Part shown: in pieces, positions 12,801-64,000 of the stretch
How positions within the stretch are numbered: the first letter of the stretch is position 1
How the letters are laid out: the number at the start of each line of letters is the position of its first letter
NCBI RefSeq assembly: GCF_035083965.1
Contig: NC_089739.1
Location: 5,524,198 to 5,588,197, forward strand
From: Branchiostoma lanceolatum
Lineage: Eukaryota > Chordata > Leptocardii > Amphioxiformes > Branchiostomatidae
Reading direction: 5' to 3'
DNA length: 64,000 nt
Translations under genes and position numbers: made by a program
The notes under the pieces: model-generated
What the model saw: only the letters and a program-made list of their open reading frames with translations
Told to the model about the DNA's origin: nothing
The model's database searches: none

Positions 12801-14133
12801 TGATGGTTTAATGAACACATATCTTCTGTCTTTCCTCCAAACCTTTTCATAACCAGTGTACCTTCTGCAGTACAGACTTATCAATACCTGTACGATTTAA
12901 TAATTGCTGAATAACTGAAAGTATATTTAATGCCTTTCACATGATTCACACCCAAAAAACATAACACATAGTAAGCGCTAATGTGCCATGATATTAAAAC
13001 TATATGTTGTTTCCTATATCAGTCACCAGGTACTTTATTCAATTCATCAATTACATTTTCTTAGATGGACCATGGATTATTACACAAAACATAGAGTTTG
13101 GGAAAAGGCTTTTGATCTAATTATCTTCCTGTCACCAGGACACGTGCATGGCCAATCAGACGATACCATCGTGCGGGAGGGAGGAGGCTGAGGCGGAGTC
13201 TGCCAAGATGGGGTGGCTGGCCCTGCTGCTGTTCGCACAGGTACGTCATCAGATGTACATAAGCTACTACACACATGTTGCCTACATCCTCATAAAATCT
13301 GCATTACGTACTACACACATGCTGTCTCGGTCATTATAAGCAGATGTGCCGTAATAGCCAGTACACACGTGCTGCCTACGCCATCACAAGCAGATATTGC
13401 CAACATGTTAACAACACAGATGCTACCTATGTCATCACACGCAGATGTACATCACTTACCACACACATGTTGCCTACGTCATCACAAGCAGATGTGCATC
13501 ACTTACTACACACATGCTGCCTACGTCATCACACGCAGATGTACATCACTTACTACACCGACATGTTTCCTACGTCATCACAAGCAGATGGGCATCACAT
13601 ACTACATATATGTTGCCTACGTCATCACAAGCAGATGGGCATCACATACTACACTCATGCTGGCTACGTCATCACAAGCAGATGTGCATTACTTGATACT
13701 ACTTGAGTCTCTCAAGTTTGCAATTCCGGCGGTATTCCTGAATAACCCGTTTTTAAAAGCAATGGATATAGGTTACATCACAGGTGTAGGCGAACTACCG
13801 TTTCGAAAGCTGCTTACTTTGACGTCGTCGCAAGCAGATGTACAATAACTGTTCTACAGTCAGCAGTCCAGTCGATTGGCAAGCGTCAAAATCAAGTGTT
13901 GTCATAGCGACGTGTCAAAAGCCCAAACCACAGATGCTTATTTGCTCTCCTTTGTTCTCGTACTTAATCATGGCTACTTTTTGCACCATAGGTTATATAC
14001 GGGATTGGTGGTACGCCTGTCAGACCTCTTGGGACAACCTACATCGACGATCAGGTGTCAAGGAAAAGTGCACCTCTCTACTTTGGTGAGTGGGCGCTTC
14101 CATCTCCATATAACTCATTGCTTCTATTCATTG

Positions 14134-14174
<41 letters not shown>

Positions 14175-17100
14175 TTGGTCAACGTTAAGCTGATACCTCC
14201 ACCATATGTACGAGGGTGAGTCAAAAAGTAATGCAATTTGTATCATAGCAGATTCATTTTTTCATGAATAATTTGATATTTGGCACAAGGGTTAGGCACA
14301 TATTTTCTTGAGCCTGAAATATCGCAATTTGTTGTTCACATTTGTATGAGCGACTGTCAGTAGATTTAAAAAAAATGACCACCACCTTAGGAGTCCGTCA
14401 GAAGCAAAGATCAGTTCTCCTAGATCTGACCCACTTACAGTTTCTTTAGGGACTTGAAATTACACCTGTATGATAACAAATGTCTCGACATCAGGTCATA
14501 AAATACACAGACTCAGTCTATAGGTGCAGATACAAATACAGAGGTGTTAATGTTATGTTACCTTGTCACACTCAAGTACCGATACTTTCAATGTACTTTT
14601 ATCTTGTCCAGATTCCTTATCTATCCACATAGACCCATGCATTCATAACTCTATACCAAAAAGAAACTGTACTATTCCTAAATGAGATTTGACGAACGTT
14701 AAGTCGCAAAGTAGCCTAGAAATATGCAATTTGATATCTAGAATGGTTTCGTTTAGTTATAACTGTAGATAATATTTGACATAATAAAGTAGTAATTAGA
14801 ATTGTGGAAAAATACACATAGATTGTTAATTATGTTATCTGTACATTTCCATACATTGTCAACGTTGCAATTGTTTTGTATATAAAATCATTCATTCAAT
14901 GTTATAATCACTAGCTAAGCAGGAAAGCAATGCGATTGGACAAACTAGTGGAAATTGGCAAACAGTCCCAAACATGCCTATTTTCAAATATAGCCACGTT
15001 TCTTTACAGGAATGTCTTCTGTCGTCTTCGCTATCGGCATTCCTCTCGGCTTTATCTCGAGTGCCTTCATCATCAAGATCTACGTCGACGTCGACAAGGA
15101 CATTGACCCCGGCGACTTCGGACTGACCCCTAATAACCCCATGTGGGTCGGCGCCTGGTGGCTCGGGTTCTTCCTTATTGCAGCAGTTTTGCTGGTGGTG
15201 GCGATACCCATGTTCTTCTTTCCCGCTGGTAAGTTTTGGAAATCGATTTTCTTTGAAAATTCCTATGTGAAGGGCCATGTTATGTTTGAAGAAACCACCT
15301 GCTTTCTTTACAATACAAAAGAATGTGCACTCACCGAACTTTTGACTGAGCTTTCGTCAAGAAGAATGACACGTGATCATACACGTGACCTTTCGGAATA
15401 GCGACATCATGTGATGGATCAAAACTTCCCCATATCATATGCACATTATAATAAATTTCTCACCATTTGCGTACACAACGTAAAGCGCCTACCGTACCGA
15501 CAAGTTTTTCGACGAGTTCTCTGGTCCTTCTCAAGTTGATTCGACCAGAAGCCTTTGTCACTTGACCTGAGCGGAAGTGTGACGTTAGCAACGGGTCAAA
15601 GGTGACCGGAAGTCGGTGTCAGCCCCGTCTCGGGATGACCGATGGGCCCTATCGAATTACGAAATAGCGAGTAAATTCATTACTATGTCGATAACCGCCA
15701 CAGATAAACCTTCATACGCGTAAAAAACTAGAAACATTACACTAGCTCGTGAATCGTTGTATGTCCCAATTGTCTTGATTCCCATCCCATCCTCTCATGA
15801 AATGCTGTTCGAATTTGCCACATATCATATTTTTGCAGCAATGAAGAGGCCTGACAATGACGATGACGAAGAGGAAAAGGATGAGAAGAGCGCGAAAGGC
15901 CGGATGCTGCCAATGATGGACACTGATCGTCGGGAACCCCTTCTGGACTCCACGAGGGGGCTGGTGGAGCAACTCAAAGGTGCCAGATTATTTTGAATGT
16001 GAAGCCAATTTTCCTCACCATTTCATCTTATCATATCATATCTTATCATATCTTTTCTTATCTCATCTCATGTCATCTTTTCGAAATTTCTGTTTCTCTC
16101 TCTCGATCTCGCACTCCAAATTTTCCTGTCTCTTCACTTACTAGTGCAGCAAACACAGCGCATCTGATCAAACTCAGTATATGAGTCACCAGGACCTACG
16201 TATCCCTACCTTTTCATATTCACGGACGAACAGAAAGCCATTTTCGTTTGAAATTGCAGAACCCACACAGTATACAAAATGTGGGGGCTTTTCTTCTCCC
16301 TCTACTTCCAGAAAAGAAGTCAGACCCTTCTTGTCTAGATTTAGCCAACACTAATATATGAGTAGTCTCCTGTTGCATCAACGTCAATTCCATTGTCACT
16401 AGTGACTCTCCTATGCTTCTGCAATTAGCCTTCGGGCACGAACCGGCAAATAAAACTTTGTTGATTTTTTTCAGATATGGCCAAAAGCCTAAAGAGTATC
16501 CTGACGAACGCGACGTTCATGATGCTGTGTCTGTCCGGTGTGTGCAACACGTCCGTATCCGGGGCCTACTCCTTCATGCCTAAGTTCATGGAGGTGCAGT
16601 TTGGCATCCCCAAGTCACGAGCCAATCTGCTTGTCGGTAAGTCTTGCAATTCATTACAGTTTTGTGTAAGCAAAAGGCAATGCTGCTGTACTCTCCTGAC
16701 GCATTCGTGCCGCCATCTTGGAAATTGGGCGCCTCCATCTTGGAAATATGGGTGTCGTCATTTTTAAAATTTTGTTAGTCTCGGATGCACGCGCAAGGCC
16801 AAGAGTATATATATTTCCGGGAGCCAGGAGACATGTCCTACTCACCTCGTGCGTTTCATTATGATTCTTAGGTGACATCAAATCGAACCGCGTACACAGT
16901 GGCGTTAGCGCTGTACATGTCTGGCGGGAGCTGCTGGCCTTGTATGTGTAAATTTGAATGTTAACTCGTGTCATGTTTTCCCGAACATCTCAGCCCCCGT
17001 CGTCTTACCCACGATGATTGTCGGCTTCCTGGTGTCTGGGTACATCATCAAGCGGTTCAAACTGTCGCCAAGGCAGTGTGTCTACATGAGAGAGCTGCTG

Positions 17101-20100
17101 GCCTTGTATGTGTAAATTTGAATGTTAACTCGTGTCATGTTTTCCCGAACATCTCAGCCCCCGTCGTCTTACCCACGATGATTGTCGGCTTCCTGGTGTC
17201 TGGGTACATCATCAAGCGGTTCAAACTGTCGCCGAGGCAGTGTGTCTACATGAGTATCACCTGCACAGCCGTCTCGTCACTGGGATTCATCGGAATGTTC
17301 TTCTTCACCTGCCCAGTGCCACCCATGGCGGGTGTCACCATACCATATGGATACAGGTACATTTGAAATGTAGCAGTTATATAGCAAGTTCGAGTAGATG
17401 GCCTTTAACAACCTCTGCATTATACATATAGAAGTAAATTAAATTTTCTAAGAAATGTAATATGTTGATATTGACTTGATGTCTACTCCCTTTTTTCTAG
17501 TTCTTCTCTGTCAGCCTAAACGTTAGAAATCACACTGATAGTCTTTTGTTAGGTAGATTATGTAGCAAATGATGCCATGCGTATATCTTGAGCTATAAAG
17601 CTGATACAGTTGGGTCTAAAAGAATCTTATCGAAACTTTTGGTTCTATTGAAAGCTTTACCAAACGTCTGATGATGTAACCCTAGGTGGGTATATGTGTG
17701 CTATTATTACTTTTTAATGTTTACAGTCCATACGTACATGCCCAAGGAATGATCCACTAATATGGACACGTGACTCTACCAGCGGGTTAAAGTTGACTGG
17801 AAGCCTGTACCGCCGCCCGTCTCGTATTGTGCCATTCAGAAATACATGTACACTAAGTAAACTTTAATAGTTAAGAATTAATTTTTTTCTTCACCACAGC
17901 CCCTACATGCCCAACGCTCCGAGCCTTTCCGCCGAGGACTTCAATCTGCTCTCCCCCTGCAACACAGAGTGTAGCTGCAGCACCGAGAAGTACAGCCCGG
18001 TCTGCGGGTCGGACGGCGTCACCTACTTCTCGGGCTGCCACGCAGGCTGCACCGTCAAGCAGAGCTTCACGCACCCCATGGGATTCACCCTCGCGGTCAG
18101 TACTCTTGTAGATTTGGTGGAGAACTTCACCGTTCCAAATCTGTATGTATCATCAGTCAACGTCAAAAGCGAACAATCTGTTCATGTTTTATAACTTACG
18201 CAAGTTAGAGAAAGTGCTTAGACTGGTTGTCTGAGATACGGTATTGACACAGCAACACTTTCAAAAATAAGCATTTATTTGCATGTGTGGTAAGGTCTAT
18301 ATTGTTGATATTGCAATAATATGCATTCTCTTAATCTAATGCATGTAAATGCTTTAATCGAGGTTGAAAAAATATCATTTCTGTTCATTTTTAACCTTTT
18401 TGCACCTTTTGTATTTGCAGAATTATTCCAATTGCGCTTGCTTGGCTAAGCTACCACCAGAGGTTCTGATGAAGTTGGCCGAAAAGTTTGGGAGGGGCGG
18501 CAAGCGACCGGGCGGTAAGCCCTCTCCAGGCGGCCCGATGCAACCGGCAGCCGGAGGGATCGAACAAGAAGAAGGGCAGCCTAAAGAACCGGCAGCCGGA
18601 GGGATTGAACAAGAAGAAGGGAAGCCTAGAGAGAGGAGGAACACTACTACTCCCGGTATTCCGGACGGCCAGGATCCCGGTACCGAACCTGGAATGCCGG
18701 AATCGGGCACCCAACGTCCTGCCACTGGGCCTGGAATGCCGGATTCGGGCGGCCAGCGTCCCGGCACCGGAGATGGAATGCCGGATTCGGGCGGCCAGCG
18801 TCCGGTAAACGGAGATGGAATGCCGGATTCGGGCGGCAAGCGTCCGGGAGAAGATGGAATGCCGGATTCGGGCGGCCAGCGTCCGGGAACCGGAGATGGA
18901 ATGCCGGATTCGGGTGGCCAGCGTCCGGGAACCGGAGATGGAATGCCGGATTCGGGTGGCCAGCGTCCGGGAACCGGAGATGGAATGCCGGATTCGGGAG
19001 GCCAGCGGCCCGGCACCGGAGTTCCCGGAAAAGGACCTATGATCCCTCCCGGAATGGGCATGCCGAACTTTGCCATTGGTGCTCCTTGTCCTCAGATATG
19101 TGAACAATGGAAGTACTGGGTGGCAAGCTTTGTCACAGTTGGTTTCATCTCTTCCTTTGGATTCATCCCAAGCATTATTGCAGTTCTCAGGTAGCTATTT
19201 ACACAGATCCGATAGATATTAATTTGCTTTTCTGATGACTTCACACTGTACCTCAAGCAAATGCAAAATGGTGATATGTTGATCGAGAGACTATTGTTAT
19301 GGCCACTTACACACACTTATGGGCACATTTTGTGTTTTTTCGTCTTCTTCAGGTCATTGACTCCCGAGACGAAATCGTTTGGCATGGGGGTGCAGATTGT
19401 GTTCTATCGACTGATAGGTAAGTTTCTACATTTTCTGTTTAAAAAAAAATACTGCATCAAAAACTCACTTGGCGACTGTATCTGGTTTGCTGTCAACCCT
19501 ACGAGCAATATAAAAGACTTACTGTCCATAGATTTGATACCTGACCTGTTGCCTGATCAAGTGACGCTTATAGCTAGCGTGGTACCCAAACCTATTGAGG
19601 GGACAGAGCTTTGGATACCAGGCTAGCTTACAGCGGTCCGCCAAACATCCAGCGGCCCCCTAGAAGGAGGGTCAAATACAGCCTCGGACAGCGGAGGTTT
19701 CGTTACACAGACTAACTAACCTGGTCGGGTCTTGACATTTGGGAAGCCCAGGACCTACAAAAGACAACAACCCTTCCCAGGCCCTGTACTCCTCTCATTT
19801 CAACATATGCGTCATGCGCTATGGAGAGGTCCCTCCAGCTTTGTTATCAACAGGGTCAAATCATAAATTAATGATTTATGATAATAAGATGGCGTATTAG
19901 TGATTGTTGAGTATTTGCTTCAGGATTCATACCATCGCCCATCTACTTCGGCGCCCTGATCGACTCGACCTGTCTTCTGTGGAACACCACGTGCGGCAGG
20001 AGGGGCTCCTGTATCCTCTACGACCTGGAACGCAACCGGTACGTGGTACTTTTTTTATCAAATATTTCTGTTAGTATTTAGACAAGAGAGACGAACCCTT

Positions 20101-31200: not shown

Positions 31201-34200
31201 GTTTATCAGACATTCCAGGTCATGGGGTTAATTTGCATGCTTGTTTGTTTGTTTCTAAGCGCGTTGCATTGTGTACGGCAATAGAGAAATTCATTGAAAT
31301 GTTGATCACCGTCACAGTTGGACCTTCATACGAGTTTTCATGTTTGTCGTTCTTATCTAGAAATGTTCTCCAGCTTGAAAGTGATCCTGACCAACCCCAC
31401 ATTCATGTGTTCCGCTGCCTCTCTCGTAACGATGGTCAGTGGCTTGGGCGGATCCACATTTATGCCAAAATACATAGAGACTCAATTTGGAGTCCCCAAA
31501 ATGCAAGCCAACTTTCTCATTGGTAAATTATGCATTTCTACTTTCTTTACCGATTGTTTGATCTACTTTTCATTTGTACTCATTTCATGACCATCTTTGT
31601 ATTTTATCTATGTTTTCTTAATCACTGTAATTAATCATTTTGGTTTGTACTATATTTCATCATGTGTATGATTTAATCTGCATATGGTTATGGTAGCTTG
31701 CATTTTGCAGGTGGAGTATGTCCTGTATAAGAAATACTACGATCCTATTGTCGGCACCTCACAGATACTGTCTTAATGAATAGATAAATAAATAAATAAA
31801 TAAATAGATAGATTAATAAGATATGCAAGATATTTGTCCTTACGTAGGAGCAAGTCATATACATATGATATACATATGATTTGAAATTACCATGCTTGAA
31901 TTACCATGCTTGTTAACATTAGAAGCTATTTTTCAGTATCAAGGCTGATAAAGAATAATTACCTTCAACGACAGCTTAAATTTTCCTTGTCTACATTAAG
32001 TAGAGTGACAAAAGATTATGTTTGTTCATAAATAACGTAGAGTTCTTTTTTTTTTCTCTGTAGCTGTCGTCCTTCTACCGTGTACCCTGGTTGGTATTCT
32101 GGGTTCGGCAGTCATTATCAGGACGTTTAAGCTGACCGCTCGCCAGTGTCTGTACATGGCCGCACTGTGCACCGCCCTGGGTCTCATACCGGGTATCTCC
32201 TTACACTTCATCGCGTGTCCGCCGACTCCCGTGGCGGGGGTCACCATACCGTATGGTTACAGGTAACTGTGTTAGACCTCCGTGAATAATATCACCAGGT
32301 TGCAAAATCATTGGATAAGAAGGTTCTTTATTCACATCTTTATGCAATCAAAAGTCGACTATTACTTGAAATGTTGTAAGGGCAAAACTGACTTGTACTA
32401 TCTCACACTGCACTTTCATATTCTGCAAGCAAAATGTTCTTATGCGAATGTTTTAATTTGCACTACCTCAACCTCTAGATTTCCAAACAATTACCCAACA
32501 ACATTAGGCAAATTACTTTCATGACTCGTGATTCCAGAAGTAGGTCAGGGGTAGCCTGTATCGTCCTCCGTCTCGACCGGCATGTCATTTACCGTTCCAT
32601 ACCCACCCAACAGCCCCTACCTGCCGAACGCACCCCGCATCACGGACGGGGACATCAACCTGCTCTCCCCATGCAACTCGGACTGTAGCTGCAGTCTGGA
32701 GAAGTACAGTCCGGTGTGCGGTATAGATGGCGTTACCTACTTCTCGGGCTGCCACGCAGGCTGCACCGACAAGCAGACCTTCATACACCCGATGGGTATC
32801 CGTCTATCTGTGAGCACCATCTTCCTTGATATGATTTAGATAACTTGGATACCGTAACAAACGTCTTGTGTCTACGGGCAGGACGCACACTCTACTACAA
32901 ATAGATATAGAATTATCTTAACCCTCCTACACCCGATTGGCATCCGTCTATCTGTGACCACCATCTTCCTTGATATAATTCAGATAACTTAGATGCCGTA
33001 ACAAACGTTTTGTGGCTACGCGTAGGACGCACATTTTACTACCCTTAGACATAGAATTATTTCAAACAGGAGGCGCTATTCCGGTCTAATAAGCTGTTCC
33101 TGTTTAAGACAGAGTACAGAGAATCTGAAATCTTTTTGAAAAAATGTGGTTCTTCTGTAGAAATACTGAAAGAATGTTTGTCGTTCACTGTTGTCTGCAG
33201 AACTTCTCAAGTTGCAGCTGCCTTGCAAAACTGCCATTGGAAGTTCTGATGAAGATTGCTGGAAAGTCTAAAAGACCAGGACAGTCAGCTGGAGGAAAGA
33301 TGCCAGGTGGCAACCCAATGCCAGGTAGCAACCCGGTGCCAGGTAGCAACCCAATGCCAGGTGGAAACCCAATGCCAGGCGGCAACCCGATGCCAGGCGG
33401 AAATCCGATGCCAGGTGGCAACCCGATGCCAGGCGGAAACCCGATGCCAGGTGGAAACCCGATGCCAGGTGGTAACCCGATGCCAGGCGGCAACCCGATA
33501 CCAGGTGGTAACCCGATGCCAGGCGGCAACCCGACGCCAGGTGGTAACCCGATGCCAGGTGGTAACCCAATGCCAGGCGGAAACCCGATGCCAGGCGGCA
33601 ACCCGATGCCAGGCGGCAACCCAATGCCAGGTGGTAACCCAATGCCAGGTAGCAACCCGATGCCAGGTGGCAACTCGATACCAGGTGGCAACCCAGTGTC
33701 GTCAACGCCTGAAAAGAGTCCAGGAAAACCTTCAGGCGTTCCTACTGGCACCGGTCAAGGAATGCCAAATATACCGATGCCCGCCATGCCCAGTTTTGCC
33801 ATCGGAGTTCCTTGTCCACAGAGCTGCAACAAGTTGATGACTGGCTACATTCCCGCTATGGCCGCTTCAATCGTCCTTGGCGTTGGTGCATTGGTGCCCT
33901 TACTACTGGCTACTCTAAGGTGCCTTACTTTACATTGTCGGTCAGGTCTAAGACTAAAATATGCCATCTAGCGTATGCTTTGTGTTTTGTTCGCAAGTCT
34001 TCGTTAAACTGTGTACATTCGTAAGAGTAAGAAAGAACCACGATTTCAGGATTGATTGTGTTCTACCAAAGTCTAATGTTGCGGCGGATTGAATAAAGAT
34101 TCATGTTGATCTTTTGATACTTTTTTCACAATAGGTCCCTTACACCTGAGACGAAATCATTTGGGATGGGCGTGGCGATGTTAATGATGAGACTTTTGGG

Positions 34201-36269
34201 TAAGTTTTAATAATGAATTCTATACGAACCTCACGTGTGTAGAATATTGATGGCGGCCTTCTAACCACGAAAGTCACATGCTAGATAGTCTCCACCTACA
34301 AAACAACAATCCCCTCCTCCAAGTTAATGTTGTGGATGAACATCTTTGCTTATCTAGGATGCGTCCTGAATAAGCACGTCCTGGATATCAGGGACCTGTA
34401 GTCTTGCTCTCGACGCGTTCTAGATATCCAGGATGTACTTCAGAGCTTCTTATGGATAAGAGCGCTAATTGTATGCAACATGCGTTAAGAAGGGGGAGCG
34501 GGATCCGATGTGTACTGCCTCCACTGCACAAAATGGTATCTTTAAGCACACCGTAAATAATGCGTAGATGCCGTAAAGATGCGACACCATCACGCTTACT
34601 TTAATATGTGCTGAAAGATCTAACTTAAAGATTCCATGCAGAGCTCTTTATCCCCACGCTCAAACCGTTAACCATTAACTCTCTCTCACTCTATTCTTCT
34701 ACCTTTCCCACAGGCTTCATCCCATCGGGTATCTACTTTGGGGCGATGGTTGACACCACCTGCACGCTATGGGGCTCTACCTGTGGTTCTCCCGGCGCAT
34801 GTCTTCTCTACGACCATGACCAGTTCCGACACCGATTTTTCGGGCTATCGCAAGGTATCGGGGCTGCACAGATAGTTGTGACGCTAATCGCTGCATGGGT
34901 GTTCAAGCGGCGCGAGAGGAGCGATCCTGCGAGCAAGATCGGTGGACTTACGACGAGAGACATGGCGACATCCATGGGGTCTCTCGCGGTATCAATGTCA
35001 TCTTTGAGGATGGTTGGTTTGACCCACGTCAGTGCCTCTCACAAAGCTTCGGACAGCAACGTAGGTACTCCAGAGGTTGGAAAACGCTCTGAACAACCCG
35101 TAGACAAGGTCAATCACACTGAAGTAGAAATTCCAGCAGCCAGTGCAGCGGAGGTAAAAATTCCCAAAATCACTGTCGACCCACCTGCCTATTCGGATGC
35201 TCTTAAAGCTGACGGACAGTCACCACACAACGCAACTCCCAGAGGTCTCGGACAGCAACATGGGTACCTGTCACTAAGCCCAACAGCCTATCAACAGATG
35301 TCAACAAATGTCTCCAAACAAGAAGAACCCGCAGAACCCAAGGGGTTCCAAAAAGACAAAAACCTTCAAGAGATCCCCACACGCAACGAAGAGCAATCGG
35401 CCAATGAAACAAGCGAGGAGGCGAAAGCTGTAGAAGAAATGCTACAGCTTGCAGATGACCAAGTCAACGCCATGCCAACAGTAGATGTCCGTGCTCAAGG
35501 TGACAAAGAAGTCCAGGTCGCCCCTGAAGTTTTGCCAGTTGTTGACCCGGGGGTTGGTGCAGTCGACACCGGAAACCCAGAAAATGCTGTCAAATCAACT
35601 AAAGATGTAGAAGCCGAAATCCATTCCGATCACGCCACCATTCTGGATGAGAAGCAACGCGATGAAGTGAATCCGGATGAGGTGGGAAAGTGTGCTAATG
35701 GTGAAGCCGAAGTTCATCCGGATCACGCCACCGTTTCGGATGAGAAGCAACGCGATGAGGTGAATCCGGATGATGTGGGAAAGTGTGCTGATGGTGAAGT
35801 CGAAGTTCATCCGGATCACACCACCGTTCCGGACGAAAAGCAACGTGATGAAGAGAATCCGGTGAATCCGGATGAGGTGGGAAAGTGTCCTGATGGTGAA
35901 TCCGTGGTCCATCCGGATCAACCCACCAGTCCGGATGAGAAACAACCTGCTGAAAAGAATCCGGTGAAGCCGGATGAGATGGATGGATGTGCTGATGGTG
36001 AAGCCGTGGTCCATCCGGATCAACCCACCATTCCGGATGAGAAGCAACCTAATGAAGAGAATCCGGTGAATCCGGATGAGATGGGTGGGTTTGTTGATGG
36101 TGAAGCCAAAATCCATTTGGATCAACCCACCATTCCGGATGAGAAGCATAGTGACAAGGCGAATCCGGTGAGTCCGAATCAGAAGGTTGAGTCTGTGGGC
36201 GCCGGAAGTGAGCAAACCACAAGTGCTATCATACATGAGGAGAATGACGACAAAATGCCTTTTGTCTAA
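25246..36269 (+). CDS. OATP/SLCO transporter, gene 2 of tandem cluster (1345 aa, PMPGGN loop and long repeat tail)
   Basis: OATP family, 12 TM, plasma membrane. Coding exons: 25246-25466, 25922-26041, 26651-26775, 27185-27303, 28152-28253, 29244-29337, 30430-30648, 30784-30924, 31361-31522, 32064-32262, 32614-32809, 33201-33919, 34135-34199, 34714-36269. They sum to 1346 codons with the stop. The exon-2 donor is weak (AAAAT|GTAGAT) but gives the phase seen in the paralogues. The cytoplasmic N-terminus is longer than in genes 1 and 3 and ends in EEDVRCGVLCCKP. Exon 7 has NNPLWVGAWWAGF, exon 11 the Kazal core CGIDGVTYFSGC. Exon 12 carries about two dozen PMPGGN units. The last exon fuses the two terminal exons of gene 1 (TM11-TM12) and continues into a ~450-aa acidic tail with six repeats. 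Family members are usually 650-750 aa, so this one is about twice normal size through the loop insert and the tail. Confidence 0.92.
26157..26190. repeat. (AAAC)n microsatellite in intron 2 of gene 2
   Basis: About eight CAAA/AAAC units, 115 bp after the exon-2 donor. Confidence 0.85.
27838..28090 (-). mobile_element. LINE 3' coding remnant (C-terminal tail of a non-LTR retrotransposon ORF2)
   Basis: The minus strand encodes GHCVRH, LILWEPTEGRRKRGRRRTTL, IDNLKRDAGL and DRTEWCRR, ending at a stop near 27860. The order GH-x-xRH ... WEP..G.R.RGR...T..D.LK.D.G ... L...M.DR..W is the familiar C-terminal tail of LINE ORF2 proteins. Only this end is present, as expected of a 5'-truncated insertion. 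It lies in intron 4 of gene 2, opposite to the gene. Confidence 0.75.
28715..28805. repeat. Dispersed ~85-bp repeat containing TCTCGCGAGA, intron 5 of gene 2
   Basis: Shares CATGATCCT, CTCTCGAGCGATCCC, TCTCGCGAGA (28772-28781) and TTTCAAAATGGG with 50685-50768 in gene 3 intron 10. TCTCGCGAGA is a known palindromic promoter motif in vertebrates (bound by BANP and reported for Kaiso). Here it is carried by a dispersed repeat. Confidence 0.6.
29365..29668 (-). mobile_element. tRNA-derived SINE-like element, intron 6 of gene 2
   Basis: A diverged copy of the element at 48320-48640. Shared blocks on the + strand: GGTAAAGGTAAA, CCATAGCCTTTTTGAGGC, GCAGTGGGTTGTAATCC, AAGGCGG, TTTTACCTCC, AAGTCAGGTA, AAGGGCACA, GTTCTGGGC, CCAACACGATG. 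The tRNA-like head is at the right end on the minus strand but is more decayed than in the gene 3 copy. Confidence 0.65.
29870..29985 (+). mobile_element. Dispersed repeat copy (family of 12225-12345)
   Basis: CTGACGAAAGACAGTGGATA, CTGTCTGAAACGTCTGACTG, ATCTTATCCAGTTGTTTGAG define the family. Non-coding, in intron 6 of gene 2. Confidence 0.55.
30070..30356. mobile_element. MITE-like element with ~35-bp imperfect terminal inverted repeats, intron 6 of gene 2
   Basis: Left end AATTGCCTCACCGGAATTTT, CGACCGAATCAATCGG is matched in inverse by the right end CCAACTGGTTCGGTCGAAAA, TTCCGGGTAATCAATT. The interior carries GGGTCAAAGTCTGCCGGAAG and a C13 run. The element is related to 15490-15665. Confidence 0.6.
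31062..31245. mobile_element. Dispersed ~180-bp repeat, intron 8 of gene 2 (shared with 59520-59735)
   Basis: GGATGTTTGTG, GTCAGTAGAGTGGCA, GAAGTGAGTG, GGGAAGATGGYGTCACC, GTCGTTTATCAGAC and AGGTCATGGGGT occur in the same order in gene 4 intron 2. Non-coding. Confidence 0.65.
32614..32809 (+). CDS. Kazal-type loop exon of gene 2 (exon 11)
   Basis: Same length (196 bp) and phase as gene 1 exon 11. Cysteines SPCNSDCSC, PVCGIDG, SGCHAGC match position for position; exon 12 adds SSCSC and VPCPQSC for a total of ten. The exon's last ~20 bases and its donor are duplicated 144 bp downstream. Confidence 0.9.
32786..33075 (+). repeat. 144-bp tandem duplication spanning the 5' splice site of gene 2 exon 11
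   Basis: Copy 1 from about 32786 includes the exon end (CACCCGATGGGTATCCGTCT, ATCT) and donor GTGAGC. Copy 2 from about 32930 repeats it as CACCCGATTGGCATCCGTCT, ATCT with GTGACC. The following ~110 intronic bases (CACCATCTTCCTTGATAT, CCGTAACAAACGT, AGGACGCACA) are also repeated. The pseudo-exon end in copy 2 has a weaker donor and no acceptor. Confidence 0.9.
33297..33702 (+). repeat. In-frame coding minisatellite in gene 2 exon 12 (18-bp unit, PMPGGN)
   Basis: About two dozen copies of CCAGGTGGCAACCCRATG encode the hexapeptide PMPGGN with occasional S, V, I or T changes. Copies are nearly identical at the DNA level, so array length is likely to vary between individuals. The block is extracellular, between cysteines 8 and 9 of the Kazal-type loop, preceded by KSKR. 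Pro after Asn rules out N-glycosylation in the repeat. Antisense and +1 ORFs of 145-193 aa here are shadows. Confidence 0.93.
34714..36269 (+). CDS. Last coding exon of gene 2: TM11-TM12 and repeat-rich cytoplasmic tail
   Basis: Starts with FIPSGIYFGAMVDTTC, equivalent to exon 14 of gene 1, and runs without intron through the last TM (aa ~870-890, then KRRERSDP). The conserved SMGSL-x4-SSL patch follows. The tail (aa ~893-1345) is strongly acidic and low-complexity. From about 35608 to 36200 it contains six repeats of 31-34 aa with the core HPDxxTxPDEKQ...NPDExGxCxDGE. Four repeats keep the Cys; the fifth has Phe. The C-terminus is DDKMPFV. No known domain recognised. Confidence 0.88.
35608..36200 (+). 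repeat. Six-copy coding repeat (93-102 bp) in the gene 2 tail
   Basis: Units begin E(A/V)(E/V)(I/V)H(P/S)D and end NPDE(V/M)G(K/G)C(A/P)DG. Units 3-5 have an extra NPV/NPVKP triplet, so they differ in length by whole codons. DNA similarity is high (GAAGTTCATCCGGATCA, TCCGGATGAGAAGCAACGYG), pointing to recent expansion. Confidence 0.9.
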
Positions 36270-43989: not shown

Positions 43990-44350
43990 ACCCTTTCCCG
44001 TTTATATGTGGCTTATGTCTGTCTTATACCTGTCTTATACATGTCTTATATCTCTGTCTTATACCTGTTTTATCTCTGTCTTATATCTTTGTCTTATCTT
44101 TGTCTTATATCTCTGTCTTATCTCTGTCTTATATGCATGTCTTATATATATATCTATGTCTTATATCTATGTCTTATCTATGTCTTATATCTATGTCTTA
44201 TCTCTGTCTTATATCTATGTCTTATATCTGTCTTATATCTCTGTCTTATCTCTGTCTTATATGCATGTCTTATCTCTGTCTTATATCTATGCCTTATATC
44301 TGTCTTACATGCATGTCTTATCTTTGTTTATCTGTCTCATCTCTGTGTCT
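43990..44350. repeat. Short tandem array of CTTATATCTCTGT-type units
   Basis: Units of 11-16 bp (GTCTTATATCT, GTCTTATCTCT, GTCTTATATGCAT) repeat about 27 times. All three forward frames are open and encode SYLCLI-type sequence, a composition artefact. Confidence 0.9.
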
Positions 44351-49000: not shown

Positions 49001-52000
49001 ATTTGATGTTGAGTAGCATGAGTATCATATGAGTATGTTCAGTAGCATGCGTATGTTGAGTAGCATGAGAGCTTGGATTTGATTTGTACCTGAATTTGTA
49101 CCATGCGAAGTTAGCAGGTCCTATGTTCAGCAGCTGTCCCCAGTCTCTAAGACTGACTGGCAGTAGCATGAGTTTACTTTACAGCGCAAATGCTGAGCTC
49201 TAGTTTTGCAATTGACATTCACTGATGAAAATTTGAAAAGCTGCACGCGTGTAAGATTTTCAATTACATGAAAAGAGATGTTTACCGTTACGTATTTTTC
49301 CATTCCTTTTTAAAAACAATTAAGAAGTCCTCTGTTTTAAGTGAAATGATTATTAATTCTAAGACAACTTCTCCTTACAGAATTGGAGGCGCCACCAGAG
49401 GAAGACGAGACTCAAGTTTTGAATGCTAAGAAGAAGAGCTTCATGCCGGGAATGGGGATGGACAGCGGTCGCAAGCCGCTTCTGGATCCCGCCAGGGGGC
49501 TCTTGGAACAAATCAAAGGTAGGTACATCACGTGAACATGTCATGATGGATCACGTGGCTGCATCATGATGCATCACGTGATTGTGCGGTGATGTATTAC
49601 GTGATTGCACCGTGATGTATCACGTGGTTGTGATGTCTTGTGTTAGATTGTTTAGGCTATACAGTATTATACAGTAGGTTAAATGTGTTTCGCCTGTTAT
49701 GTTCCTTGTTGAAAATACAACGGTTATTTGTGGACTAAGCTTCAGCGTCCAACAACCAGTAGGTAACTTTTTGAGGCAAAAACGCATCCCGTAAGTCATT
49801 CGTCCATTTATTCATTCATTCATTTCTTCCATCGTTCATTCATTGAAGAGATGGTCAAGAGCCTGAAGACGATCCTGACCAACTGGACCTTCATATTGCT
49901 GGCGTTGACGGCCGTCTGTGCCGTGTCCACCATCGGCGCCTTCTCCTTCATGCCCAAGTACCTGGAAATGCAGTTCGGCATCCCCAAGTCCAAGGCCAAC
50001 TTTCTTCTAGGTGAGGCGTCTCGCTATTGCAGTAGATGCTTCTGCTATTCCCTTATTCTCTGTCCTTCTTCCAAATAACAAAGAACATCATTTTATCTAC
50101 AAAACTCGTATATTTCTTAACATTAAATGCTGTTTGTTCAAGAAGTAATATTCTCACACACTCGTATTAAAGTTGCGCTGGACTTGGGCATACCTGTTCA
50201 ACCTATATTACATTGTAGACGGAATAGCATGCAACCTTATATTAAGCACTCAATGCACAGGAAAAGGTATATAGAATAAAATCTCCCGCATGAATTACAT
50301 ACGGTTTACCCATCTAATTCGATTACGGTATCGTCATCATTTGCATTTTTTCTGTTAAACTTCCAGGTATGATATCCCTACCATCCTCGGTTTTCGGGAT
50401 TCTCGGATCTGGAATCGTCATCAAGAAGCTGAAACTGTCCCCCAAGGGCTGCATGTACTTATCCGCCCTGTCAATCATCACCTCCTCCTGCTGCACAGTG
50501 CCCCTCATGTTTATCAACTGCCCTCAGTCTCCAATGGCGGGCGTGACTGTCCCGTATGGATACAAGTAAGTTCTGTTCTTGCCAAAGGTAACTTTCTAAT
50601 ACCTTAAGCACACTGAAGTAGCCATTTTCAATATGTTAAAGAGTTAGGCAGCATGGAGAAGGTTAAATTCTATCAAATCGTACACAAATCCCATGATCCT
50701 CTCGCATTCAACTCTCGCGCGATCCCAACAGCGTATATTCTCGCGAGAACTAGCTTTCAAAATGGGCCATCAAAAGCTTTTTGTGTCTTTTAAATGACAC
50801 CTGTGCACATTTTATTCGTTAACCAGGCCAGGGTGAAGATGATAATCCTATACCAGAAGATAAGCTTTAAACGTAGATGTTATAGGATCAACTTGAAGCA
50901 ATTTTGTAACATAGTCCTTATTAGCCTGACAATATTCAAAATGATGTTTGCTTATTTTGGATGTCCTTTCTTGTAGCCCGAATAATCCAAGCGAGGCAAC
51001 GACGCTACAAGGCATAGGCTTGATCTCATCTTGCAATTCTGCCTGCAACTGTCCGCTGGACAAGTACAAGCCTGTGTGTGGACCGGACGGTGTCACATAC
51101 TTCTCGGGCTGCCACGCAGGATGCACCGAGGAACAGATCATCAGGGGGCCGGGAAAATTCAGCTTCTCGGTAAGATGCCAATGGCTAAACATTAAGATAC
51201 TATGTGCCTTTCTACCGCATATTCTTTAATATCTTAGAGGTGGGGTCAGCTTCACATCTTTGGGGCTTGAAAAGATGCAGACCAATGACTCCATGGGTGG
51301 TAGGGAGTAATGACATTAAGTGAAATAATTTGTATAGACTGTTCTCACTCATCTCATCTGAAATGCACCTTCACCCGTAGTCCACTTTCTTACGACATAC
51401 TCACACGCCCTGATCGATAATATGAACTAACTAATGCAAACGTATCTTTCCCGAATTCATGAAGATGTCAACAAGTCACAGGCATTTTTCTATTTCATTT
51501 CATTGTTGCAGAATTTTTCGAACTGCGGATGCATGTGGACGCGTACGCCAGGCATGCCGGGAGCAGGTGGATACGTGGCCACCGCTATCCCGGGTAGACA
51601 GAAAAGAGATGCCAACGACTCAACGACTACAGCGTCCAACCCAGCAACAACACCAGACAACATAGCCTCTACCGCGTATCCTTCACAAGCAACGGATGCA
51701 ATGGAGGACGAGACGAATGGAGGAGCCCAGAACTTCGCGATATCGAAGCCATGTCGACCACCTTGTGACAAGTGGCCTGTCTTTGTCGGCATCTATTTTG
51801 TAGCGGCCTTGTCGAGATCCTTCGGCTTCATTCCAGTCATCATAGGGACACTTCGGTGAGTAGCAAAAGCAGTAAGACATGTTCAAAGGTTAGATTGGGG
51901 AATATACTATTGTATCCCCTACTTTGGTCTTTAAGGCACATGATAGAAGATGTAAAGTAAAGTAAAGTAAAGTAAAGTAAAGTAAAGTAAAGTAAGATCT

Positions 52001-54125: not shown

Positions 54126-54227
54126 ATTCACTTCTGTAAGTGGTATAATTTCTGCATGTACGTTCAAAGATATGGAACGATATGAATGCAGCCTATTGTA
54201 AAGGAAGATGAAAACTTCGTGTTTATG

Positions 54228-54526
54228 CATTCGGTTTAATTTAAAAAAAGTGACAGTCCTTTTAAGTGGTAACATGTACCGTATACATGCATTCAGTTAA
54301 ATGAAAAAAAGTGCCAGACATTTCAAGTTGTAGCATGTACTGTATACATGCATTCGGTTAAATAAAAAGAAGTGCCAGTCCTTTTAAGTGGTAACATGTG
54401 CCGTATACATGCATTCGGTGAAATCAAAAGAAGTACCAGCCCTTTTAAGTGGTAACATGTACCGTACACATGTATTCGCTTAAATCAAAGGAAGTGTCAG
54501 TCCTTTGAAGTGGTTTCAGAAACATG
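54228..54526. repeat. 61-bp tandem repeat, about five copies
   Basis: Units start at 54228, 54290, 54351, 54412 and 54473 with (C/T)ATTCGGTTAAAT and contain AGTGCCAGTCCTTTTAAGTG and ACATGTACCGTATACATG. The last part is a near-palindrome, so each unit can fold. Confidence 0.9.
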
Positions 54527-61707: not shown

Positions 61708-63906
61708 CCAATTTCATCTGTCGCTTCCATCTGTCACGTTTACCGTAGACTTAATGATCTTTCCGTCACGCTACGCCATAGAGTGTCAGAAAGTGCATTG
61801 AAACATTCATTCGTACAATCTTTGTTTGGATCCAGGGCCGGCCTGACGCCATGGGACCCGCGGTGGATCGGAAACTGGTGGTTGGGGTTCCCTGTGTTGG
61901 GTTTACTCGGGGTCCTGGTGGCGATTCCACTGTTTGGGTTTCCGCGCAAGCTACCAGGTAAGACTACCAGGTCTTTCCCAAAGACTGCCCGGCCGGGCCC
62001 CGGATTGGAAATGTGACCCTAGCATTAGTTGCTAGCGCCGAGAATCTCTTTATTATCCGAACATAGGTTATCAATAACTGCTGCCCTAAATCAATAATCA
62101 TTCCTTCATCTTTCGTTTAAAATTTGTACTCAATGTCATAGGCGTGTAGATAGTTTTCCCTCCTTTCATTTCCACTGATTCGTCTCTCTTGCTGTATGTA
62201 TTTGATCATTTTCCGAAAGGGTCCGAAGAATTGCACGACGACGAGGCACAGCTGCCGACGAAAAAAGCCGAGGGTGACGTCACAAAGGCCGAAGAAGCCG
62301 GTGAACATGTACGAAACACACCAATCATCGATAGGATCCGAGGAGCTCTGAAAGACCTGCTGAAGTCGCTGATGGACCTAGGGAGGTCTTACTCTTACGT
62401 GTTGCTGACTCTGGCAGGTATGACACCAGTCAGTACTTTATCTCAAGGGAGTGAGATATTAATTGCTGTTTTAGCTTGTTCGCCTCTCTCTCTCTTCCTC
62501 TCTATGTATTTGTGTGTGTGTGTGTGTTTGTGTTTCTGTCTATGTATCTGTATGCATGTGTTTATGTGTCCCACTGTGTGAACTATGTGTGTAAACTTGT
62601 ATGTGTATGTGTGGGCAGGTATGTGTGTATGTGTGTTCGTGTGTGTTTGTGTTTGAGTCTGTTTTTCTGCGAAATCAAACACTGTCATGCCGATTCCTCC
62701 ATTGTTCATGAAGATCAAAACTACATTGCGCATATATTTTTGTTCGATATCATTTTATTTTATGTTGCAGTTTCCTTTGATGGAATGTCGAGCTCTGGTA
62801 TTTTCGCCTTTGCACCGAAAGTTTGCGAGATACTTTTTGGCCTGCCAGTGACGTCATCAGCCCTGTACTTTGGTACGCACCTTTTCTCGTATTTTGTGAT
62901 TTCAGTCTTCATATCATAAGTTATAAAACAACTGATCTTTTAACAGAATTATGCCATATATTTGTGCCATACATTATCTTGTTTTATAAGATTAATTGCT
63001 TTCTTCGGAGCAGTAGTGGTGTCTTTGCGTTTCGATTGGACTGCCGCCATTTTGGATCCATGTTTTAAAGTCATTACGGCACTCCGTTAATGCCGGTTCA
63101 TGTTTTCAACTGCGCATGCACATTAAGATGCACTATGTATATCAAAATAAAGCACCCTGAGATGAGACGTGAACAAAACACGTCTGAACATGGTATCAAG
63201 CGTGGGCTAGTCAAGAACTTCACCTTTGGCCTCACGCATGCGCAGTTCCAACCGTAAACTGGCTTATGGTATTAACCATATATGAAACAAGTTTTACTTA
63301 ATAGTTAAAAAAAGTTAAAGTGACCCGGGCGTCTTGAAAAGACGCATAAGGGTGGCGCCCAACTGTAATAGCCAACACAAAAATTGGACTTACCCAAATT
63401 TTCGACTGTCTTTGTCAATGAGTAATCCACCGCTTAGATGACGTCACGTTATGCAGATGAGACACGTGACTCGGTGAGCAGTGGATCATAAGTTGCTCAC
63501 CGAGTCACGTGTCTCATCTGCATAACGTGACGTCATCTCATCGGTGGATTGTTTATTCCTTGAAAAAAAGACTTGGTGCTATACAGTCGAAAATTTGGGT
63601 ATTAACTACTAAGTACAATTTTTGTGTTGGCTATTACAGTTAAAACTTGTTTCAGAATGACTTCTACCAACATAGATGAACTTTCAGGCTTACCATATAT
63701 ATGATTGTTTTTAAAGGGTTGTCCATGATCCCCGGCTTTGCGATCGGTTCTTTGATGGGCGGCTGGATTAGCAAGAAAATTGGAGTAGACTGCAAAAAAC
63801 TGCTACGATGGATCCTCACTATGTACATGGTCTCGGGAATGGCGATTTTCGTTTATCTCATGTACTGCAAGGAGCCTCCGAGGGCTTATGAAGAACTAAA
63901 CAACGG
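58545..63906 (+). CDS. OATP/SLCO transporter, gene 4 (partial, diverged subfamily; 3' end beyond window)
   Basis: OATP family, N-terminal ~481 aa. Exons: 58545-58778, 59079-59237, 59939-60014, 60460-60583, 60956-61095, 61422-61521 (acceptor atypical), 61836-61957, 62220-62417, 62771-62872, 63717-63906. Exon 1 encodes a cytoplasmic N-terminus with KKKKIRFGWFGFTP, then LQVFNTSRWLLFF (TM1), resembling the FTPxCLQxFNTxxW start of OATP4-type proteins. Exon 2 has LERRFEMSSSKSGFIVSSY and exon 5 AYMDENVKKK. Exon 7 has the canonical signature DPRWIGNWWLGF. Exon 4 encodes a Cys- and Asn/Thr-rich extracellular loop. Introns differ from genes 1-3: the boundary after TM6 lies within TM7 (LTLAG|VSFDGM). 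The last exon in view ends GG|GTGTGT in the phase that precedes the Kazal exon in the paralogues. Subfamily assignment is tentative. Confidence 0.85.
59308..59501. mobile_element. Foldback element, intron 2 of gene 4
   Basis: Left arm TGCATGAAATGGCCTCAGAT, CCCGGCGGATACGT ... TCCGGAAATATTCCAAAG pairs with right arm CTTTGGAATATTTCCGGAGG ... ACGTATCCGCCGGGATC, CGAGGCCATTTCGTGCA. Arms of about 85 bp surround a centre rich in GGATCCGT. Typical of hairpin MITEs. Confidence 0.8.
59520..59735. mobile_element. Dispersed repeat (family of 31062-31245), intron 2 of gene 4
   Basis: Second copy of the family seen in gene 2 intron 8; it lies directly after the foldback element. Confidence 0.65.
60149..60262. 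mobile_element. Small hairpin MITE-like element, intron 3 of gene 4
   Basis: CAAAACAAACTCGCCAGTGA, GATGCTGGAAGGTGTCAGCTTT is mirrored by AAAGCTGACAACTTCCAGCA, TCTCATTGGCGAGTTTGTTTTG. Arms are about 42 bp with few mismatches; the loop is about 28 nt. No coding capacity. Confidence 0.8.
61573..61597. repeat. (GATT)n microsatellite in gene 4
   Basis: Six ATTG units shortly after the donor at 61522 and just before the (CAT)n run. Confidence 0.85.
61628..61707. repeat. (CAT)n microsatellite, about 26 units, intron 6 of gene 4
   Basis: Uninterrupted CAT run ending in CAC, 130 bp before exon 7. Poly-Ser and antisense poly-Asp ORFs are artefacts. Confidence 0.95.
62509..62660. repeat. (TG)-rich low-complexity stretch, intron 8 of gene 4
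   Basis: Repeated TGTGTG, TATGTG and TGTTTG with TATGTATCTG interruptions. The Cys/Val-rich forward ORF across it is an artefact, although the ORF later enters the true exon 9. Confidence 0.8.
63361..63651. mobile_element. Large foldback (hairpin) element, intron 9 of gene 4
   Basis: Outer ends AACTGTAATAGCCAACACAA, AAATTG and CAATTTTTGTGTTGGCTATT, ACAGTT are perfect inverses. The inner arms 63437-63480 and 63494-63537 are a perfect 44-bp inverted repeat around a 13-nt loop, including GATGACGTCACGTTATGCAG and GACACGTGACTCGGTGAGCA. Non-coding; a hairpin-type MITE. Confidence 0.9.
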
Positions 63907-64000
63907 GTGTGTATGAATAGCTGTGCGTAGTATTTCAAACTGTACTGATGTTACATTCTGTGTATTCTTTTTTGACAACTCCTCAGGGGCGGATGCATCT

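Follow-up and report, generated by a model that had tools for sequence, protein, structure and literature searches.

Introduction

In OATP1B1 and OATP1B3 the Kazal domain sits above the C-bundle (PMC10507018), where it adjoins an electropositive entrance and is tied by a disulfide to EL3-4 (PMC10709409), and passages of both OATP1B structure papers state that its function is not known (PMC10507018, PMC10709409). A 64,000-nucleotide stretch of the genome of the lancelet Branchiostoma lanceolatum (contig NC_089739.1), here called the window, holds three neighbouring genes in which the chain leading from this domain to TM10 is many times longer than in three OATPs of known structure, and in two of which it contains tandem repeats. 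The locus raises the question of whether these segments belong to the proteins, how they arose and what they might do for the transporter. The reading that we put forward, with a probability of roughly one half, is that they form a long coding linker, constrained and disordered, which was amplified from an ancestral linker and acts as a bristle or shield at the extracellular entrance.

Three tandem OATP genes

Judged from their sequences, genes 1, 2 and 3 are tandem OATP (SLCO) paralogues, organic-anion transport itself being a prediction. Five consecutive exons of each gene, beginning at TM9 and in gene 1 stopping short of its last part, were joined and read through 447, 910 and 410 residues respectively without a stop. 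The parts from TM9 on that were searched (447, 469 and 410 residues) score 168.8, 154.6 and 176.3 bits against the Pfam OATP profile (PF03137), for which the cut-off is 25.8, and the best phmmer match to the solved OATPs, with gene 3, has an E-value of 5.8e-35. Kazal_2 is found above the Pfam cut-off in the TM9-TM10 loop of all three genes, and each loop contains ten cysteines, spaced by 3, 1, 8, 10, 3, 19, 1, 215/197/73 (genes 1/2/3) and 3 residues. The exons concerned are:

17158..17356, + strand, gene 1 TM9 exon, its start being copy 2 of a tandem duplication
17900..18095, + strand, gene 1 Kazal exon with loop Cys1-Cys6 (joined exons, Pfam)
18421..19190, + strand, gene 1 insert exon with Cys7-Cys8, the insert, Cys9-Cys10 and TM10 (splice sites, frame)
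32614..32809, + strand, gene 2 Kazal exon (joined exons, Pfam)
33201..33919, + strand, gene 2 insert exon (splice sites, frame)
50977..51169, + strand, gene 3 Kazal exon (joined exons, Pfam)
51512..51855, + strand, gene 3 insert exon (splice sites, frame)

In each of the three genes the insert exon is preceded by AG and followed by GT, starts in phase 0 and ends in phase 2. The framework around the insert is likewise kept throughout, with N-x-S-x-C-x-C upstream and P-C-x-x-x-C and TM10 downstream. A first-pass annotation of this DNA had placed the inserts in the corresponding exon of the three genes within just such a framework, and both points are borne out.

The family signature near TM6 is D-x-RW-(I/V)-GAWW-x-G-(F/L)-L (PMC10507018), from which the genes of the window depart at several positions. 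Open reading frames in the TM6 region read NPMWVGAWWLGFF, NPLWVGAWWAGFF and NPLWVGAWWLGYF; they keep the core WVGAWWxG but differ at the D, the R and the last position, and match 8, 8 and 7 of the 11 fixed positions when counted by eye.

A fourth OATP-like gene, at 63680-64000, seems to leave the window at an apparent TM9 exon, before any loop exon. Lancelet gene models are described as prone to error (PMC4967905).

Two tandem duplications lie across exon-intron borders at this locus. One of 164 bp with 2 mismatches (16928-17255) spans the end of an intron and the start of the gene 1 TM9 exon, and one of 144 bp with 21 mismatches (32777-33064) spans the end and the donor site of the gene 2 Kazal exon. 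They resemble the amphioxus 'mirage' minisatellites in crossing such borders and are near the sizes reported for these in globin genes, 150-160 and 157 bp (PMC3087553). The mirages, as far as that account describes them, cross splice borders, whereas the OATP inserts lie wholly within exons.

A long Kazal-TM10 linker

The Cys8-Cys9 segments of the three genes are:

18442..19086, + strand, gene 1, 215 residues, Gly+Pro 43.7%
33222..33812, + strand, gene 2, 197 residues, Gly+Pro 53.3%
51533..51751, + strand, gene 3, 73 residues, Ala/Thr-rich, without a tandem array

The range of roughly 90-220 residues first proposed for this spacing thus suits genes 1 and 2, while gene 3 falls short of it. As the Kazal_2 match ends at Cys8 (residue 138) in genes 1 and 2, and two residues earlier in gene 3, the insert forms the connection between that module and TM10 and lies outside the Kazal fold.

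Human OATP1B1, OATP1C1 and OATP2A1 share with the lancelet genes the Pfam OATP and Kazal_2 domains, the ten loop cysteines and a linker at the same place. In OATP2A1, as here, Cys9 and Cys10 are separated by 3 residues (P-C-x-x-x-C), unlike OATP1B1 and OATP1C1, where the gap is 5. Counted on the phmmer alignments, the linker has 17 residues in OATP1B1, 17 in OATP1C1 and 12 in OATP2A1, against 73-215 here, where the linkers of genes 1 and 2 also hold tandem arrays. The comparison covers solved vertebrate OATPs and, with invertebrate OATPs outside the set, does not gauge the rarity of such lengths. The short spacing that the first-pass annotation gave for known OATPs holds in these three vertebrate proteins. 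OATP 1B3 and 6C1 were also matched without a large gap, the residues displayed stopping short of Cys9. What the three genes show is a genuine lengthening of a linker already known in this family, within open coding exons, and gene 2 carries a clear sign of selection on the protein.

Glycans are reported on N503 and N516 of OATP1B (PMC10709409); by our own count on the alignment, N516 of OATP1B1 lies within the Cys8-Cys9 linker. Among the matches listed in the literature search, none dealt with Cys8-Cys9 inserts or with furin cutting of an OATP. The gene 1 and gene 2 inserts matched no distinct sequence in the PDB at an E-value of 0.01. A scan with the Kazal-exon alignment gave 28 pattern matches in prokaryote contigs and 87 in viral contigs, none of them a relative by tblastn, although the absence of relatives from collections of prokaryotes and viruses says little.

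Tandem repeats within the linkers

The features found within the inserts, together with a second coding array in gene 2, are:

18457..18492, + strand, gene 1, short predicted helix PEVLMKLAEKFG directly after the Kazal module, its sequence common with gene 2 (AlphaFold2, alignment)
18508..18552, + strand, gene 1, suggestive single gene-2-like unit left of the array (codon shuffles)
18542..18632, + strand, gene 1, in-frame 45-bp duplication, 2 copies (Tandem Repeats Finder)
18628..18639, + strand, gene 1, furin-type motif RERR, then N-glycosylation sequon NTT (motif scan)
18653..19021, + strand, gene 1, 42-bp array (GMPDSGGQRPGTGD), 8.8 copies (Tandem Repeats Finder)
33300..33695, + strand, gene 2, 18-bp array (MPGGNP), 22 units, apparently under purifying selection (Tandem Repeats Finder, pN/pS)
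33723..33766, + strand, gene 2, suggestive single gene-1-like unit right of the array (codon shuffles)
35622..36221, + strand, gene 2, cytoplasmic-tail array of acidic units of ~34 residues, the last degenerate (in-gene control)
51596..51607, + strand, gene 3, furin-type motif RQKR, then DA, the sequon NDS and TTT (motif scan)

Of the tandem units in genes 1 and 2 and the Ser/Thr-rich stretch in gene 3 described at first, the 42-bp and 18-bp arrays stand. The gene 3 segment proved to be Ala/Thr-rich (Ala 16.4%, Thr 15.1%, Ser 6.8%), and Tandem Repeats Finder detected no array in it, so that an array within an exon with a unit that is a multiple of three is seen in genes 1 and 2 but not in gene 3. 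A mucin-like linker in gene 3 was considered and set aside, its Ser+Thr content (16 of 73 residues) being judged too low against the threshold for such a call. Nor do the arrays lie at one point of the loop, as they begin ~70 residues past Cys8 in gene 1 and 26 in gene 2.

In other respects the repeats behave as coding minisatellites do, with units of a multiple of three (18, 42, 45 and ~102 bp), synonymous drift and an in-frame change of unit length, the sole length change in the gene 1 array being 39 instead of 42 bp. They differ in that two different arrays occupy one loop interval of neighbouring paralogues.

Signs of selection on the arrays

The gene 2 array looks, from the pattern of its substitutions, to be translated and held in its amino-acid sequence by selection. 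Over its 22 units 26 of 34 differences from the consensus are synonymous, where 25% would be expected. With runs collapsed, so that adjacent units sharing a variant count as one, the figure is 19 of 26 (P = 3.6e-7); with each distinct variant counted once it is 5 of 10 (P = 0.08). Mismatches fall 5, 1 and 27 times at the three codon positions (p = 1.8e-8). The contrast between 7 synonymous CA changes and no non-synonymous TG changes at CpG in the 22 units means that CpG hot spots alone do not account for the synonymous bias. Three minisatellites outside the identified exons served as controls and gave codon-phase p-values of 0.53, 0.88 and 0.078:

13250-13694, unit 47 bp
44002-44346, unit ~24 bp
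54225-54514, unit 61 bp

In the gene 1 array the constraint is weakly indicated in the same direction. Its codon-phase p-value is 0.053 and its pN/pS, from 7 of 8 units, 0.30 (0.05-0.49); P is 0.02 for run-collapsed events and 0.07 for distinct variants. When the first and last units are dropped (units 2-7) the events give P = 0.29, and the constraint is not significant.

A rival explanation, less likely but to be taken seriously, is tolerated slippage, in which in-frame minisatellites grow and shrink in a permissive disordered linker, the insert has no positive role, and selection removes only frameshifts and residues that harm folding. Consistent with this, tandem repeats abound in the window (57 rows in Tandem Repeats Finder, many of them overlapping), the paralogues differ in unit sequence and length, the gene 1 array taken alone is little constrained, and a coding array arose in the cytoplasmic tail of gene 2 as well. 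This tail array, however, tells against mere tolerance. The gene 2 loop array has a mean pN/pS of 0.14 (bootstrap 0.05-0.26), whereas the six units of the tail give 0.70 (0.50-0.88), or 0.68 (0.37-0.98) without the degenerate last unit and 0.62 (0.28-0.90) over the first 22 columns, with a pS of 0.37 in the loop array against 0.23-0.33 in the tail; mere tolerance does not predict such a difference, though avoidance of harmful residues might yield the constraint on the loop array. The codon-phase test of the tail array gave p = 0.9, its gapped alignment blurring the phase. Of the tolerated or selected stalk first suggested, selection is thus the part that finds support, in gene 2 (pN/pS 0.14) and weakly in gene 1 (0.30).

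History of the linkers

Genes 1 and 2 share 58% identity outside the insert, with a dS of about 1.4 between them, against 52-53% for the more distant gene 3. Within-array pS (0.37 and 0.27 in the two loop arrays) is far below this between-gene dS; as the array units are less diverged than the genes, the arrays are either younger or homogenised. The linkers themselves, on the other hand, share both ends in genes 1 and 2. A common segment near Cys8, LAKLPxEVLMKxA, was equalled by none of 2000 shuffles, and one near Cys9, FAIGxPCPQ, by 5 of 2000; taken by itself, the Gly/Pro-rich part of this left segment is of marginal significance (94 of 2000). A linker with such ends therefore probably predates the arrays. 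Near Cys9 the NFAI of gene 3 is common with gene 1 (4 of 2000) and not clearly with gene 2 (205 of 2000). Gene 3 was also considered as a third array and rejected: it has none, and the left part of its insert is matched by 1170 and 267 of 2000 shuffles in comparison with inserts 1 and 2.

Single units of each gene may also survive beside the array of the other. A copy of the gene 1 unit to the right of the gene 2 array was matched by 12 of 1000 codon shuffles and by 7 of 3084 other windows, and a copy of the gene 2 unit to the left of the gene 1 array by 38 of 1000 and 17 of 3064. On the wrong sides the counts were 574 of 1000 (gene 1 unit, left flank of gene 2) and 144 of 1000 (gene 2 unit, right flank of gene 1), and in the gene 3 exon the two units showed no similarity (285 and 75 of 1000). 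As six such tests were made these relic units are only suggestive; they hint that amplification started from different ends of a single ancestral linker in the two genes.

The first-pass annotation had spoken of unrelated inserts and of independent minisatellite births. The units do differ and are less diverged than the genes, and the left part of the gene 3 insert shows no significant similarity to the others; the ends common to genes 1 and 2 speak against unrelated linkers and wholly independent births, and 'minisatellite birth' fits two of the three genes only, gene 3 being without an array.

Furin-type sites in two of the linkers

In the parts examined, genes 1 and 3 each have exactly one R-x-[KR]-R motif, both inside the insert and each with an N-glycosylation sequon and a run of Thr after it, and gene 2 has none. 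We infer from OATP topology that these motifs face the outside of the cell. Composition shuffles produced such a site by chance in 5% of cases for gene 1 and 0.3% for gene 3, and in at least two of the three inserts in 2 of 20000. The similarity of the surroundings of the two sites is not significant (343 of 2000 shuffles) and the motif was picked after looking, so the sites are only a lead.

The lead would be to a transporter whose mature form is cut in the loop by a convertase into one chain of TM1-9 plus the Kazal module and another of TM10-12, the cut activating or re-targeting the protein or trimming its loop, as in ENaC and Dispatched. Such precedents exist in ENaC, for which the motif is defined and an extracellular segment is cut by convertases (PMC8791634), and in Dispatched, which is cut in its first extracellular loop (PMC5811216). 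The ENaC GRIP domain and Dispatched are extracellular parts of membrane proteins that, like the linkers, bear a furin-type motif, a likeness of working that is a lead only. They belong to unrelated families with known cutting, whereas cutting of the linkers is conjectured from the motif. The paired motifs, each with its sequon and Thr run, and their rarity across the shuffled inserts speak for a convertase switch. We nevertheless regard it as doubtful, given a motif chosen post hoc, a gene 1 site that arises in 5% of shuffles, surroundings that are not significantly alike, the want of a site in gene 2 and a scan that covered the joined parts from TM9 on, short of the end of gene 1. Somewhat more doubtful is the fuller version, in which the Kazal-TM10 linker would be a convertase-cut tether, tunable in length by its repeats, cut in genes 1 and 3 and uncut in gene 2. 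If it were true, the cut tether would control surface maturation or would gate the transport entrance, and the paralogues would differ in their regulation.

Spacing from the membrane and splicing

The first-pass annotation also suggested that the insert spaces the Kazal domain from the membrane, and on one form of this idea it would raise the domain toward a partner. Length alone speaks for this, the contour at 0.36 nm per residue being about 77 nm in gene 1 and 71 nm in gene 2. The TM9 side, however, is near normal, with 25, 25 and 24 residues from AGVT to Cys1 in genes 1, 2 and 3 against 19 in OATP1B1 and OATP1C1. With only the TM10-side linker long, the Kazal module could not lift far and the extra chain would have to bulge, which makes a membrane spacer very improbable.

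That the repeats are instead an unspliced or alternatively removed intron (an exitron), missing from the main protein, is harder still to credit. Acceptor-like sequences do end at 19095 in gene 1 and 33821 in gene 2, and once the thresholds are lowered to match the weakest real sites, one in-frame pair covers the entire gene 1 array (18515-19138; donor 4.0, acceptor 0.1) and four in-frame pairs occur in gene 3. Yet no donor-like site exceeds the first threshold in the three exons, none of the 38 pairs of gene 2 is in frame even at the lowered threshold, the gene 1 pair would delete Cys9 and Cys10, and the constraint in gene 2 is codon-phased. The first-threshold donor test is itself weak, since it also misses 7 of the 13 inferred real donors. 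Taken together, splicing-out of the gene 2 array is unlikely, and that of the gene 1 or gene 3 insert is conceivable.

A proposed flexible linker beside the entrance

AlphaFold2, run on the three exon translations with an alignment of 3 sequences, gave a mean pLDDT of 50.1. In gene 1 a helix is predicted at exon residues 13-24 (pLDDT 72 for residues 11-20 and 55 for residues 21-30), followed by coil at block pLDDT values of 42-55 until the TM10 helix; with so shallow an alignment, such low confidence is weak evidence of disorder. By the Uversky formula the gene 1 insert falls in the disordered region, that of gene 2 on the boundary line and that of gene 3 just beside it. The net charge per residue is about 0.03 in all three inserts.

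The proposal of a coding linker shielding the entrance may be set out as follows. Before genes 1 and 2 split, an ancestral linker with the ends now common to both, probably Gly/Pro-rich, would have been present, and in-frame repeat duplication would later have amplified one stretch of it in one gene and another in the other. The linker is presumably unstructured. The short linker on the TM9 side would keep the Kazal module seated over the C-terminal helix bundle, while the extra chain bulges out next to the extracellular entrance, a bristle both flexible and nearly neutral in charge. There it may act as an entropic shield or spacer, and between paralogues composition and length would count for more than the exact order of residues. 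We infer a shielding or spacing function; the binding of partners, which the first-pass annotation also named, is conceivable.

Within gene 2, the contrast between the constrained loop array and the freely changing tail array illustrates cleanly that selection on coding repeats depends on where they lie. For the OATP family, the same module with a linker of 73, 197 or 215 residues in three paralogues makes a natural series, in which the role of the loop could be probed by trimming or exchanging linkers.
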